A stretch of DNA of 64,000 bases from Tistrella mobilis KA081020-065 (lineage in GTDB: Bacteria; Pseudomonadota; Alphaproteobacteria; Tistrellales; Tistrellaceae). Every line of letters begins with the position of its first letter. Within the stretch, counting starts at the first letter, position 1. Of this stretch, positions 3,171 to 9,103 are shown one piece after another. Location of the stretch: NCBI RefSeq assembly GCF_000264455.2, contig NC_017956.1, forward strand, positions 975,501 through 1,039,500, given 5' to 3'. A program made the translations under genes and the position numbers. A model generated the notes under the pieces. It was given only the letters and a program-made list of their open reading frames with translations, searched no databases and was not told the DNA's origin.

Positions 3171-3577
3171 GGGCCTTCACGCAAGCGTTCGAAGAGGGGC
3201 AGCGGCCGGCGCAGGGCCGACAAGGAGCGCCACGGGCAAAGCGGGCCTGCGGTGCGCGCGGGCAATTGCACGCCTCAGCGACCGCGTCAACCACCTTTAA
3301 CGAGTGCCGTGCGGCGCAAAGATGGCGGGGTGTCATCTCTCCGTCAACCGCCTATTTCCGCAGCGCCTTCCCGTTGCGGGCCAAGGGTCGCCGCATCCGG
3401 GCCCGGCAGGGGCCGCCTGCGGGGCGCCCCGGCATGACTGGTTCACCCTGGTGCGTGAACAGCACCAAACTGCATCAGGTTGCAGCCAACAGCGGAATCC
3501 TGCGCTGCGCGGGGTCTCTCTACCATGACGCTCATCCAAAACGGGCCGGATTACGGCCGTGGGGCAGGAGGGAGACG
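3171..3577. other. divergent intergenic region, tkt / AGCS symporter
   Basis: This 407-base stretch separates the divergent tkt and symporter genes and must hold promoters for both. I see no convincing -35/-10 pair or gene. It contains the 15-bp palindrome at 3467-3481 described separately. Confidence 0.6.
3467..3481. promoter_or_regulatory. candidate operator, copy 1 (aspartate module)
   Basis: AAACTGCATCAGGTT is an imperfect palindrome, 96 bases upstream of the symporter start. It matches the reverse complement of the perfect palindrome at 8254-8268 at 13 of 15 positions, and the two differences fall at symmetric positions 3 and 13. Binding by the XRE regulator at 8297 is inference. Confidence 0.5.
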
Positions 3578-5008
3578 ATGGCGTTTCTGACGGCGTTCTT
3601 CGGAGCGATCGACAATCTGACCTGGGGATGGGCGCTGATCCCGATCCTGGTCGTGTTCGGCGTGTTCCTGACGATCATGTCGGGCTTCGTGCAGTTCGTG
3701 TTTTTCCGGCGGATGTTCCGGGTGCTGGGACGCGGCGCCAACAATGCCGATCCGAACGCGATCTCGGCGCGGGAGGCGCTGCTGGTCTCGGTGGGTGGGC
3801 GTGTCGGGGGCGGCAACATCGCCGGTGTCGCGGTGGCCATCACGCTCGGTGGCCCGGGTGCGGTGTTCTGGATGTGGGCGATCGCGCTCTGCGGCATGGC
3901 GACCAGCCTGATCGAATGCACGCTCGCCCAGCTCTATAAGACCCGCGACGGCGAGGGCGGGTTCCGGGGCGGGCCGGCCTATTACATCCGCCGCGGTCTC
4001 GGCGGGCGCTACAACTGGCTGGCCATCGTCTATGGCATCTGCCTGATGGCCTCGTTCGGCTTCGGCTTCAATGCATTCCAGGGCAACACCATGGCCGGCG
4101 CCCTGCATGACAGCTTCGGCATCGATCGCCTGTGGTCGGGCATCGTCATCGTCGCCGTCACCGCGCTGGTCATCTTCGGCGGCATCAAGCGCATCGCCCG
4201 GGCGGCGGATGTGGTGGTGCCGGTCATGGCGCTCGGCTATATCGCGGTCGCCATTCTGGTCATCGGCCTCAACATCGCCGATGTGCCCGACATGCTGGTG
4301 CGGATCGTCCGCTCGGCCTTCGGCTTCGATCAGGCGGTGGCCGGCGGCATGGGCGCGGCCATCGCCCAGGGCCTGCGCCGGGGTCTGTTCTCCAATGAAG
4401 CGGGCCTGGGCTCGGCGCCGAATGTGGCCGCCACCGCGCTGGTCCGCCATCCGGTCAGCCAGGGCATCACCCAGTCGCTGTCGGTCTTCATCGACACCAT
4501 GCTGATCTGCACCTGCACGGCGCTGATCATCCTTTTGGGCGACGTCTATGTTCCGGGTGCCCAGGGCATCGACGGCGTGGCGCTGACCCAGCAGTCGCTG
4601 GCCAGCCATCTGGGCGATGCCGCGCGCTATCTGCTGACGCTCGCCATCCTGCTCTTCGCCTTCTCGTCGATCATCTACAACTACTATCTGGGCGAAAACG
4701 GCCTGGCGGTGATGACCCGGTCGAAGCCGGCCGTTCTGGCGCTGCGCCTCGCCATCCTGGCGATGGTCTTCCTGGGCGCCGCCGCCCCGCAGGCCACCTC
4801 GGTGTTCTTCTTCTCGGACCCGATGATGGGCCTGCTCGCCCTGGTCAATCTGATCGCGATCATCATGCTCTTCCCCGTGGCGATGCGGGTGATCGACGAC
4901 TACCGCACCCAGCTGAAGGCCGGCGTCGCCCGCCCGGTGCTCGATCCCGCGCGCTTCCCCGATCTCGACATCGATCGCAAGGCCTGGGATCCGACGGTCT
5001 GGAAGTAA
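3578..5008 (+). CDS. sodium:alanine/glycine symporter, AGCS family
   Basis: Secondary transporter importing a small amino acid with sodium across the inner membrane. The 476-residue protein has about ten or eleven hydrophobic segments. AGCS features are visible: the conserved GGRVGGGNIAGVAVAI stretch near residues 70-85, GGFRGGPAYYI, GLGRYNW-like loop residues, and RRGLFSNEAGLGSAPN near the middle. I chose the ATG at 3578 because it has AGGAGGGAG just upstream and matches the family start; the longer reading frame lacks support. aspA follows 77 bases downstream on the same strand, so the cargo is plausibly aspartate, asparagine or alanine. The substrate is inferred from context. Confidence 0.9.
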   Translation: MAFLTAFFGAIDNLTWGWALIPILVVFGVFLTIMSGFVQFVFFRRMFRVLGRGANNADPNAISAREALLVSVGGRVGGGNIAGVAVAITLGGPGAVFWMWAIALCGMATSLIECTLAQLYKTRDGEGGFRGGPAYYIRRGLGGRYNWLAIVYGICLMASFGFGFNAFQGNTMAGALHDSFGIDRLWSGIVIVAVTALVIFGGIKRIARAADVVVPVMALGYIAVAILVIGLNIADVPDMLVRIVRSAFGFDQAVAGGMGAAIAQGLRRGLFSNEAGLGSAPNVAATALVRHPVSQGITQSLSVFIDTMLICTCTALIILLGDVYVPGAQGIDGVALTQQSLASHLGDAARYLLTLAILLFAFSSIIYNYYLGENGLAVMTRSKPAVLALRLAILAMVFLGAAAPQATSVFFFSDPMMGLLALVNLIAIIMLFPVAMRVIDDYRTQLKAGVARPVLDPARFPDLDIDRKAWDPTVWK

Positions 5009-5085
5009 CCCGGACCCGACTGCCGGGGCCGTTCTTTCCGGGCGGCCCCGGTCCACCCCCGCACATCACAGCCTGGATCAGACCG

Positions 5086-6459
<1,374 letters not shown>

Positions 6460-6481
6460 CGCGGAGCCGGCGCGGCGACGG

Positions 6482-6514
6482 ATCGGGGGAGATTCGGGGG
6501 GAGGCTCCCCCGAT
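6482..6514. terminator. terminator hairpin between convergent aspA and asparaginase
   Basis: Arms ATCGGGGGA (6482-6490) and TCCCCCGAT (6506-6514) pair perfectly. A second G-run allows a competing shorter hairpin. It lies in the 76-base convergent gap and could serve both strands. TTTCG follows on the plus strand. Confidence 0.6.
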
Positions 6515-6535
6515 TTCGTTGTGCGGGGGCTGGGG

Positions 6536-7381
6536 TCAGGCGAGCCAGAGACGGATCAGGGCGGCTTCCGGGGTCTCGGTGCCGCCGTTCTCTACCCCGC
6601 AGGACCAGAGACCGGCGCCGGCGGCATAGCTGCCGGGGATCAGTCCGCCCTGTTCGCACTGGCTGACCGCGCGGATGCGCTTGCCGGCCCGCACGGCCTC
6701 GGACAGGGCGGACAGAACCTCGGGATCGGCCATCGCCGTGCCCGAGCCGAAGACCCTGAGCACCGCGCCGTCCAGTTCCGCCAGAGAGGCCCGCAGCATG
6801 GCGGCCGGCATGCCGGGCGAGAGGGAGAGGACCGCCAGCCGCCGGTCGCCGAACCGCCGGCGGCGGGGCGGGCAGGCGGGGGCCTGGGGGATGGCGCGGA
6901 AGCTGTCGGCGCCCTGCGAATCGTGTTTGACCAGCCCTTCCGCCGGCATCAGACGGCCGGCGAAGGCCAGCATCACCGCCTCGCCGGGGCGGAGGGCGGC
7001 ATCGATCGCCAGATCGAGATTGTCTTCCGCATCGCCGCCGCGGCTGAGCGGCTGCATGGCGCCGCAAAGCACGACATGGCGGCCAAGGCCTGCCAGCGCC
7101 TGCGACAGCGCCGCACCGGTGAAGGCCATGGTGTCGGTGCCGTGGGTGACGATCACCGGCGTGCCCGGCTGGTCGTCGATCAGGTCGAGCATCCGGTTCC
7201 AGTGCGCCGGGCCGACATCGGCGCTGTCGAGCAACGGTGTGAAGACCTTCGTGGTCAGCCGGATGCCCTTGGGCAGGCGCCCCTCGACCGCGGCTTCGAC
7301 CAGCCCGTCGACGGGGCCGAGGCCATGGGGCGTGTCGCCCATGCCGATGGTGCCGCCGGTGTGGATGAGCAGCAGGCGCAT
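6536..7381 (-). CDS. asparaginase (type I-like), compact form
   Basis: Predicted to hydrolyse L-asparagine to aspartate and ammonia. The 281 residues start with the nucleophile motif TGGTIGM (8-14) and carry the second catalytic block HGTDTM (80-85, Thr82/Asp83). They end with the conserved SQCEQGGLIPGSYAAG region. At 281 residues it is shorter than the roughly 325-340 usual for the family, but both domains seem present. There is no signal peptide, so it should act in the cytoplasm. Its ATG overlaps the stop of the upstream racemase gene by one base (TGATG), implying translational coupling. Confidence 0.85.
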   Translation of the reverse strand: MRLLLIHTGGTIGMGDTPHGLGPVDGLVEAAVEGRLPKGIRLTTKVFTPLLDSADVGPAHWNRMLDLIDDQPGTPVIVTHGTDTMAFTGAALSQALAGLGRHVVLCGAMQPLSRGGDAEDNLDLAIDAALRPGEAVMLAFAGRLMPAEGLVKHDSQGADSFRAIPQAPACPPRRRRFGDRRLAVLSLSPGMPAAMLRASLAELDGAVLRVFGSGTAMADPEVLSALSEAVRAGKRIRAVSQCEQGGLIPGSYAAGAGLWSCGVENGGTETPEAALIRLWLA

Positions 7382-8127
7382 CAGGCCGCCTTCATGCCGG
7401 CATGACCCAGCGCCAGCGCCGCCAGACGGGCGGCGACGGCATCGGTCACGTCGATCAGCCGCCGCCCGGCGACGGGCCGCGCGATCAGCGGCAGTTCGGT
7501 GCAGGCGAGCAGGATGGTATCGGCCTCCATCTGTATGATGATCTCCTCAAGCCGCGGGCCAAGCGACGCATGGGCGCCGCCCAGCCGCTTCACGTCGTGG
7601 ATGAGCGTCTGCAGCCGGTCGGGATCGGCCGGGGTTTCGATCGCAACCTGAGCCGCCAGGCCAGCATAGGCGGAGTGGTCGTCCAGCGCCACGACCGGGG
7701 CCGCACCCAGCAGCCCGACCCGGCCGGCACCGCTCTGTCGGATTTCGTCGTGCAGCACGCCCTGGAAGGAGACCAGCTGCCCGGCGCCCGGCATGCCGGC
7801 CAGCAGCGCGTCGATGCGGGGGGCATACCAGTTCAGCGTGTTGCAGGCGATGGCGAAGGCATCGACCCGGGTGGCGATCTCGCGCACCGTCCGCTCCATC
7901 GCCGCCCAGACCGCCGCCTCGTTCGCCTTCAGATCCATCGACAGGCCGAGGGCGGGTTCTGACACCGCCACCAGCCGCGGCGCGTCCAGATCTCCGCGGA
8001 AGCCGGGCCCCATCAGGGCCTGGGTATGGCGCAGGATCTTGGCCCAGAGATCGAGCCCGGCTTCGGGACCCGAGCCGGTGATGATGCCGAGCGTATAGGC
8101 CCGGGAGGGATGGGGGCGCGGTGTCAT
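7381..8127 (-). CDS. aspartate/glutamate racemase family protein
   Basis: Predicted PLP-independent amino-acid racemase interconverting L- and D-aspartate (or glutamate). The 248 residues hold the two-cysteine arrangement of the family: Cys95 in AIACNTLN and Cys209 in LLACTELPLI. GIITGSGPEAG is near the N-terminus. The start at 8127 (MTPRPHPSRAY) is favoured over a 39-residue upstream extension of low-complexity sequence. It is the first gene of a two-gene operon with asparaginase and is divergent from the XRE regulator. The context favours aspartate as substrate, but the exact specificity cannot be read from sequence. Confidence 0.82.
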   Translation of the reverse strand: MTPRPHPSRAYTLGIITGSGPEAGLDLWAKILRHTQALMGPGFRGDLDAPRLVAVSEPALGLSMDLKANEAAVWAAMERTVREIATRVDAFAIACNTLNWYAPRIDALLAGMPGAGQLVSFQGVLHDEIRQSGAGRVGLLGAAPVVALDDHSAYAGLAAQVAIETPADPDRLQTLIHDVKRLGGAHASLGPRLEEIIIQMEADTILLACTELPLIARPVAGRRLIDVTDAVAARLAALALGHAGMKAA

Positions 8128-8253
8128 GGCGTGGGGGTCTTTCCCGCGAAGATGGCCCAAAGGCCTGGTCCGAAGGCATGGTCCGAAGACGCAGAAGCTG
8201 CCATGGAATGGTGTCGGCGGGGGCACGGCTTGACAATGCGGCACTCGGTGCTC

Positions 8254-8268
8254 AATCTGATGCAGATT
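8254..8268. promoter_or_regulatory. candidate operator, copy 2 (aspartate module)
   Basis: AATCTGATGCAGATT is a perfect inverted repeat with 6-base arms and a 3-base centre. It lies 28 bases before the XRE regulator start and upstream of the divergent racemase-asparaginase operon. A near-identical site lies at 3467-3481. Autoregulation plus control of the catabolic genes is inferred. Confidence 0.55.
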
Positions 8269-8296
8269 TATGCTGTTACGGCACCGAAGAGCGCAA

Positions 8297-9103
8297 ATGA
8301 CCGAGATTGCCGAGAATCTTCGCCTGCTCTGCTCGTACCGGCCGTCGATCTCTCAGGTCGGACGGGATCTCGGCATCAACCGCAGCCAGCTCAACCGCTA
8401 TCTGGCCGGCAGTTCCACGCCGCGGCCGGCCTTGCTGCGCAAGATCTGTGACTATTTCGGTGTCGAGCCCTACGAGATGATGCTGCCGCCGCGCGATTTC
8501 GCCGAGATCGTCCGGGTGCGCGGTCTGGACGAGGGCACCACCAACCGTCGGCTGCGCCAGCATTTCGACCGGGTGATGGCGCTGGGCGATGCCCGGGTGC
8601 GCAATCTGACCGGCATGTTCTTCGAATATTACTATTCGATGTCGCAGAAGGGGAAGGTCATCCGCGGGTTGATCGTGTTCTCGGTCGAAGACGGGCGAAC
8701 CTTCTACCGGCGTCTGGAACGCATGGGGCCGCACGACCGGCCCGGCCGGCGGCATTACCGCTATCAGGGGGCGGCGCTGGTCGCTGGGGACCGGGTGTTC
8801 ATGTCCGATTATGAATACGGTGCCGGGATCGAGTTGACCCAGACGGTGCTTTATCCGGATTACGCGCTCCGCTGGACCCGGCTGCATGGGGTGAAGCTGG
8901 GCGTCTCGGCCGATCAGGCGCATATGCCGTGTTCCGTCCGGGTCTATCTGGAGCGGATTCCGGCGCGGCTGTCGCTGACCGGCGCGCTCAGGGCCTGCGG
9001 CCTGTTCGACCCCGGCCATCCCGAAATCCCGTCCCATGTGCCCGAGATGATCGACAACAGCACCTCCGGCCCCTATGCCTTCGACGCCTATGCGCGGCGG
9101 TGA
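8297..9103 (+). CDS. XRE-family transcriptional regulator with uncharacterised C-terminal domain
   Basis: The 268-residue protein has an N-terminal helix-turn-helix of the Cro/C1 type (about residues 1-58, with SISQVGRDLGINRSQLNRYL as the turn and recognition helix). About 200 further residues match no domain I can name, including FFEYYYSMSQKGKVIRGLI and MSDYEYGAGIELTQ. The C-terminal part may sense a ligand. It is divergent from the racemase-asparaginase operon and probably controls the aspartate module. ATG 8297 is preferred to the in-frame start at 8270 because that one would lie just after the palindrome with no ribosome-binding site. Confidence 0.8.
   Translation: MTEIAENLRLLCSYRPSISQVGRDLGINRSQLNRYLAGSSTPRPALLRKICDYFGVEPYEMMLPPRDFAEIVRVRGLDEGTTNRRLRQHFDRVMALGDARVRNLTGMFFEYYYSMSQKGKVIRGLIVFSVEDGRTFYRRLERMGPHDRPGRRHYRYQGAALVAGDRVFMSDYEYGAGIELTQTVLYPDYALRWTRLHGVKLGVSADQAHMPCSVRVYLERIPARLSLTGALRACGLFDPGHPEIPSHVPEMIDNSTSGPYAFDAYARR

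Follow-up and report, generated by a model that had tools for sequence, protein, structure and literature searches.

The stretch of DNA considered here (hereafter the window) spans 64,000 nt of contig NC_017956.1 of Tistrella mobilis KA081020-065, whose genome is 6.5 Mb, and all coordinates below are positions in this window. It harbours five adjacent genes, described in the initial annotation as a symporter, an aspartase, an asparaginase, an Asp/Glu racemase and an XRE regulator, and these identities are borne out by matches to Pfam, NCBIfam and the Protein Data Bank (PDB). Together with the operators that precede them, which are our main subject, these genes probably make up a two-operon system for catabolism of aspartate and asparagine with a regulator of its own.

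3578-5008, plus strand: AgcS-type sodium:amino-acid symporter (Pfam PF01235, E 1.6e-147; TIGR00835 above cut-off)
5086-6459, plus strand: aspartase (aspartate ammonia-lyase-like; NF008909 above cut-off, GSSIMPGKVNP loop present)
6536-7381, minus strand: short, type I-like asparaginase, 281 amino acids (PF00710 and PF17763 above gathering scores)
7381-8127, minus strand: Asp/Glu-type racemase, substrate class putative (PF01177 above gathering score)
8297-9103, plus strand: XRE-type regulator, 268 amino acids (N-terminal helix-turn-helix (HTH), matching HTH_3 and others; C-terminal predicted eight-stranded beta-barrel)

The promoters of relatives of this regulator are rich in the hexamer TGRYGC and its complement GCRYCA, and the operator core in which these half-sites are arranged is TGRYGC-N4-TGRYGC-N7-GCRYCA-N4-GCRYCA, that is, four half-sites in 39 bp. 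Exactly two places in the window fit this 39-mer, even when up to five mismatches are allowed.

3439-3477, no strand assigned: site 1 core operator, TGGTTC-ACCC-TGGTGC-GTGAACA-GCACCA-AACT-GCATCA, ahead of the symporter-aspartase operon (agrees with the consensus at 23/24, 1 mismatch)
8258-8296, no strand assigned: site 2 core operator, TGATGC-AGAT-TTATGC-TGTTACG-GCACCG-AAGA-GCGCAA, between the racemase and regulator genes (21/24, 3 mismatches)

The site 2 core ends one base ahead of the regulator start codon, which we place at 8297 and not at 8270 (the open reading frame call) because position 8270 carries GTG in a congener and it is from 8297 onward that homology is seen.

The architecture was tested on 74 non-redundant regulator promoters, from which the window and its congener had been left out. 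These contain 188 half-sites, as against 52.6 ± 6.8 in shuffled sequences, and their spacing is far from random: half-sites in the same direction lie 10 bp apart 45 times (shuffle mean 0.1, maximum 2 in 200 shuffles), while convergent half-sites have start distances of 13, 23 and 33 bp 14, 28 and 25 times, respectively (about 0.05 expected for each). In 1.12 Mb of loci, the N4-N7-N4 core occurs at 78 places at ≤4 mismatches, nearly all of which precede the regulator or a module gene, compared with 0-6 for any other spacing tried. The core is also rare in the 6.5-Mb genome, where only three places fit the 39-mer at ≤3 mismatches (control 0), two of them being sites 1 and 2. The third (C2:406439) lies in coding sequence within long open frames (L177), and is for this reason taken as a chance match.

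Variants of the array are found in some groups. Five half-sites in a row occur at five loci of Herbaspirillum/Noviherbaspirillum type, either as a pair of overlapping 39-bp matches offset by 10 bp (L141, L146, L147 and L161) or as one match with a preceding in-phase half-site (L140). Six Rhodobacteraceae-type loci (L163, L164, L168, L169, L173 and L174) keep the neighbourhood and the recognition helix and have one or two half-sites before the regulator; the operator of such relatives may be shorter or differently spaced. Upstream of three regulators that share mainly the HTH (L056, L066 and L067), facing TGACGC/TGATGC-N6-GCGTCA half-sites are separated by one base less than the N7 spacing seen in the main family, and these proteins may form a sister group of regulators that shares the recognition helix but has a different target.

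The genes that accompany the regulator elsewhere tell the same pathway. A profile built from seven relatives retrieved 80 loci in a genome collection, and at 63 of these, in alpha-, beta- and gammaproteobacteria and in many gene orders, at least one of the aspartase, asparaginase, AgcS symporter and racemase genes lies within about 7 kb. More distant regulators, similar mainly in the HTH, have no module gene at any of their 10 loci, and the two counts together argue that the regulator is specific to the aspartate/asparagine pathway, in line with the earlier proposal of a dedicated XRE regulator. Loci L120 and L138 come from records titled Anaerolineae and Nocardioides marinus, and their copies look proteobacterial (L120 resembles L118), which probably reflects contamination or mislabelled bins.

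The protein itself is clearly of the Cro/C1 type, with HTH_3 and HTH_31 above gathering scores and matches to the HTH fold; HTH_31 is found at E≤0.01 in all 80 relatives, whose recognition helix, NRSQxNRYL, is near invariant, as expected if all of them read the same half-site. Only Cro/C1-type HTH models match it, and no GntR-family DNA-binding domain was found. The C-terminal half is covered by no Pfam or NCBIfam model, the regulator has no NCBIfam equivalog match and a PDB sequence search with its profile returned no match. This half is predicted to be an eight-stranded beta-barrel (AlphaFold predicted local distance difference test score 88), with weak Foldseek matches (best about E 0.02) and VIA Z values of 9-12 to designed barrels, avidins and the Cap15 receptor. 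The resemblance of the predicted barrel is a fold lead and no claim of homology, and an effector pocket is a plausible role for it.

How the arrays sit relative to promoters speaks to the sign of regulation. When 45 target-side operators were aligned toward their target gene (element counts are given over 43, with a shuffle control), the array was seen to continue on the target side only, with GCRYCA at +5 (18/43) and GCSNAA at +15, followed by a TTGACA-like -35 box (TTGtca) at +21 in 9/43, against at most 4 in shuffles. The best -10 box falls at +43 to +45 in 22/43 target-side promoters. On the regulator side, no element stands at a fixed distance across the family alignment. This geometry can be projected onto the window.

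3482-3497, plus strand: weaker half-sites in 10-bp phase, GCAGCC (3482-3487) and GCGGAA (3492-3497), corresponding to +5 and +15 in the family alignment
3498-3526, plus strand: predicted activator-dependent promoter of the symporter operon, with a poor -35 TCCTGC (3498-3503) and -10 TACCAT (3521-3526), placed by family geometry
8208-8236, minus strand: predicted promoter of the racemase-asparaginase operon, -35 TTGTCA (8231-8236) and -10 CACCAT (8208-8213), placed by family geometry

Bound protein that stops at the -35 box without covering the promoter is typical of activators. The array here has this layout, running in 10-bp phase up to the -35 box, and suggests that the catabolic operons are activated by the regulator. 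At site 2, the core abuts the regulator start codon and bound protein should therefore hinder transcription of the regulator gene, which suggests autorepression in this clade. The hexamer TTGACA at 8230-8235 was rejected as proof of a regulator promoter and is kept as a candidate, because it overlaps the target-side TTGTCA on the opposite strand and the family has no regulator-side element at a fixed distance.

Gene association, operator architecture, operator rarity, conservation and promoter geometry, all read from sequence, point to the XRE-type protein encoded at 8297-9103 as a dedicated regulator that controls two operons for aspartate/asparagine catabolism through 39-bp operators, a reading to which we give a probability of roughly 0.8. 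From these observations, we infer binding, activation, autorepression, an effector and a pathway flux as follows. The regulator would bind the four-half-site core at 3439-3477 and 8258-8296, as a dimer on the central inverted pair, with additional protomers probably placed on its flanks at a distance of one helical turn. Because the target-side half-sites, in 10-bp phase, reach no further than the -35 box, the protein bound there is most likely in contact with RNA polymerase. The effector, probably aspartate or asparagine, would enter the C-terminal barrel, whereupon the symporter-aspartase and racemase-asparaginase operons would be activated, and the same binding should repress the regulator gene, whose start codon directly follows the core in this clade. 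The pathway would then import aspartate and asparagine, hydrolyse asparagine, racemise D-aspartate and deaminate aspartate to fumarate and ammonia.

A broader proposal is more tentative, and we hold it at somewhat less than even odds: that the protein belongs to an undescribed class, combining an XRE HTH with a calycin-like eight-stranded ligand barrel, whose members would sit head-to-tail on six half-sites at helical-turn phase, from the central dyad outward to the -35 box, so that one array would activate catabolism to one side and limit expression of its own gene to the other, as the ancestral aspartate/asparagine switch of many proteobacteria.

Several points weigh against activation through 39-bp operators: (i) site 2 fits just 21 of the 24 consensus positions, (ii) 25 of the 80 relatives (about a quarter to a third), mainly remote ones and including most of the remote Rhodobacteraceae, lack an N4-N7-N4 core (≤4 mismatches) in the vicinity of a module gene, (iii) the pattern was first spotted by eye in some of the promoters used for testing (the window being left out of the test), (iv) the N7/N4 register describes DNA and is not proof of a protein assembly, (v) the symporter -35 box in this genome is placed mainly by family geometry and (vi) a repressor, too, could sit just upstream of a -35 box.

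The last of these points leads to the alternative that survives best, in which the same regulator on the same arrays represses both operons in the classical manner until aspartate or asparagine releases it, like AnsR on ansAB in Bacillus subtilis. Its functional counterparts, AnsR of B. subtilis and of Corynebacterium glutamicum, are indeed repressors (PMC9145765), and the site 2 core is placed to block the regulator's own transcription. However, the arrays end just upstream of the target -35 box at a fixed distance, with the -10 box and start site free, and the target promoters in the window have weak boxes, as expected of activated promoters, which makes this alternative unlikely, although it deserves to be taken seriously.

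That the sites belong to another regulator, the XRE gene being a mere neighbour, is very improbable. Binding by the XRE protein is a prediction, and genes for AgcS and asparaginase may answer to global control by nitrogen or carbon, but operator and regulator travel together: among 386 genomes of the class, an operator at ≤2 mismatches is present in 6/6 genomes with a close regulator and in 9/380 without one. Moreover, loci of many different gene orders have the operator ahead of the regulator, some of them without a module gene. Sites 1 and 2 are both kept in the congener (G001) and in a conspecific genome (G097), and the half-site changes seen in these comparisons keep the consensus, with T->C at the Y position (as in site 1 of G097) and A->G at the R position.

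The initial annotation had rested on a shorter element, a perfect 15-bp palindrome at 8254-8268 with an opposite-strand copy at 3467-3481 that matches at 13 of 15 positions. Both are present: AATCTGATGCAGATT at 8254-8268 is a perfect dyad, and the minus strand of 3467-3481 reads AACCTGATGCAGTTT, with changes at the symmetric positions 3 and 13. The similarity between the sites extends well beyond 15 bp (AACAGCATAAATCTGCATCAGATTG versus AACAGCACCAAACTGCATCAGGTTG), and each 15-mer takes in one outer half-site with its flanks, the right-hand one at site 1 and the left-hand one at site 2, which explains why they appeared on opposite strands. In the window, the 15-mer has 6 places at ≤3 mismatches (one of them being the same palindrome on the other strand) versus 0.8 expected, a number reached in 0/100 shuffles. 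Genome-wide, it is a poor discriminator, with 12 places at ≤2 mismatches and 112 at ≤3, probably owing in part to the common codon run CTG-ATG-CAG; it was rejected as a genome-wide motif for being too frequent, and taken alone makes a modest case. The dyad ATCTGNNNCAGAT was likewise rejected as a motif (1,256 places at ≤1 mismatch, both strands counted). The genome search that had been put forward as a check thus nearly fails with the 15-mer and succeeds with the 39-mer.

An operator consisting of this palindrome, bound by one dimer, is a shade less credible still than control by another regulator. The perfect dyad is kept in the congener, but conservation across the regulator family extends to the TGRYGC repeats in their fixed phase and not to its arms. 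The 15-mer has many matches in the genome, and in G097 the centre of the dyad changes from ATG to GTG, that is, TGATGC to TGGTGC, which stays inside the half-site consensus. The earlier idea that the regulator binds both sites thus holds in that one type of operator precedes both operons and the regulator, and gives way in that this operator is a 39-bp array. Chance resemblance without regulatory meaning, for which one could invoke the CTG-ATG-CAG-like codon runs that make relatives of the 15-mer common, is negligible in view of the half-site spacing, the rarity in the genome, the promoter geometry, the co-occurrence with the regulator and the conservation.

As for the enzymes and transporter, the sole PDB relative of the symporter is AgcS. 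The aspartase scores 661 bits against NF008909 (cut-off 510), yet is under the aspA equivalog cut-off, and is closer to aspartases than to class II fumarases in the PDB ranking. The PDB relative of the asparaginase is L-asparaginase I; at 281 amino acids, against about 337 in solved type I enzymes, it has a shortened middle and keeps both asparaginase domains. For the racemase-like protein, the PDB search gave no sequence relative, and the best NCBIfam model is CuyB cysteate racemase, under its cut-off (as is TIGR00035), for which reason cysteate or another acidic amino acid is a possible substrate. Use of D-aspartate would rest on this putative racemase of Asp/Glu type.

For a nutrient pathway that is common in alpha-, beta- and gammaproteobacteria, where known asparagine regulators are of other kinds, these findings offer a precise, testable operator together with a predicted regulator, and the 39-bp operator is specific enough for regulon annotation by scan. 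A phased direct-repeat array with apparent activator geometry would be an unusual mode for an XRE protein, and the putative effector domain has no Pfam or NCBIfam model.

A literature search, a weak negative as subscription papers were outside its reach, found no described regulon with this site, as the initial annotation had also stated. The nearest known system is that of B. subtilis, where AnsR is an Asn-responsive XRE-family repressor divergent from the asparaginase and aspartase genes ansAB (PMC9145765). Like it, the Tistrella regulator is an XRE protein that adjoins asparaginase and aspartase genes and is divergent from a catabolic operon; unlike it, the Tistrella system has a C-terminal predicted barrel, a phased operator of multiple half-sites, a second operon with symporter and racemase, and a probable activator geometry. 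B. subtilis AnsR is also a much smaller protein. The regulators of Rhizobium etli AnsR-ansPAB and of the C. glutamicum ans operon are of GntR type, and in C. glutamicum one inverted repeat, ACCTGTCTGACAGCT, lying downstream of the start site serves as a roadblock (PMC9145765). These systems likewise pair a dedicated regulator with permease, asparaginase and aspartase genes, but the Tistrella regulator is of Cro/C1 type. One dedicated regulator for aspartase, racemase and transporter is also found in Acinetobacter baylyi (a case that our literature search did not turn up), where it is of LysR type and hence of a different family. Finally, the XRE/lambda-repressor-type DNA-binding domains of SinR, DdrO and P22 c2 have the N-terminal fold in common with the Tistrella regulator, which differs from them by its predicted C-terminal all-beta barrel and its direct half-site repeats one helical turn apart. 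In the way it works, the Tistrella regulator resembles the AnsR regulators, from which it differs in operator, effector domain, gene content and, probably, sign of regulation; we class it as a dedicated regulator of catabolism within the XRE superfamily.
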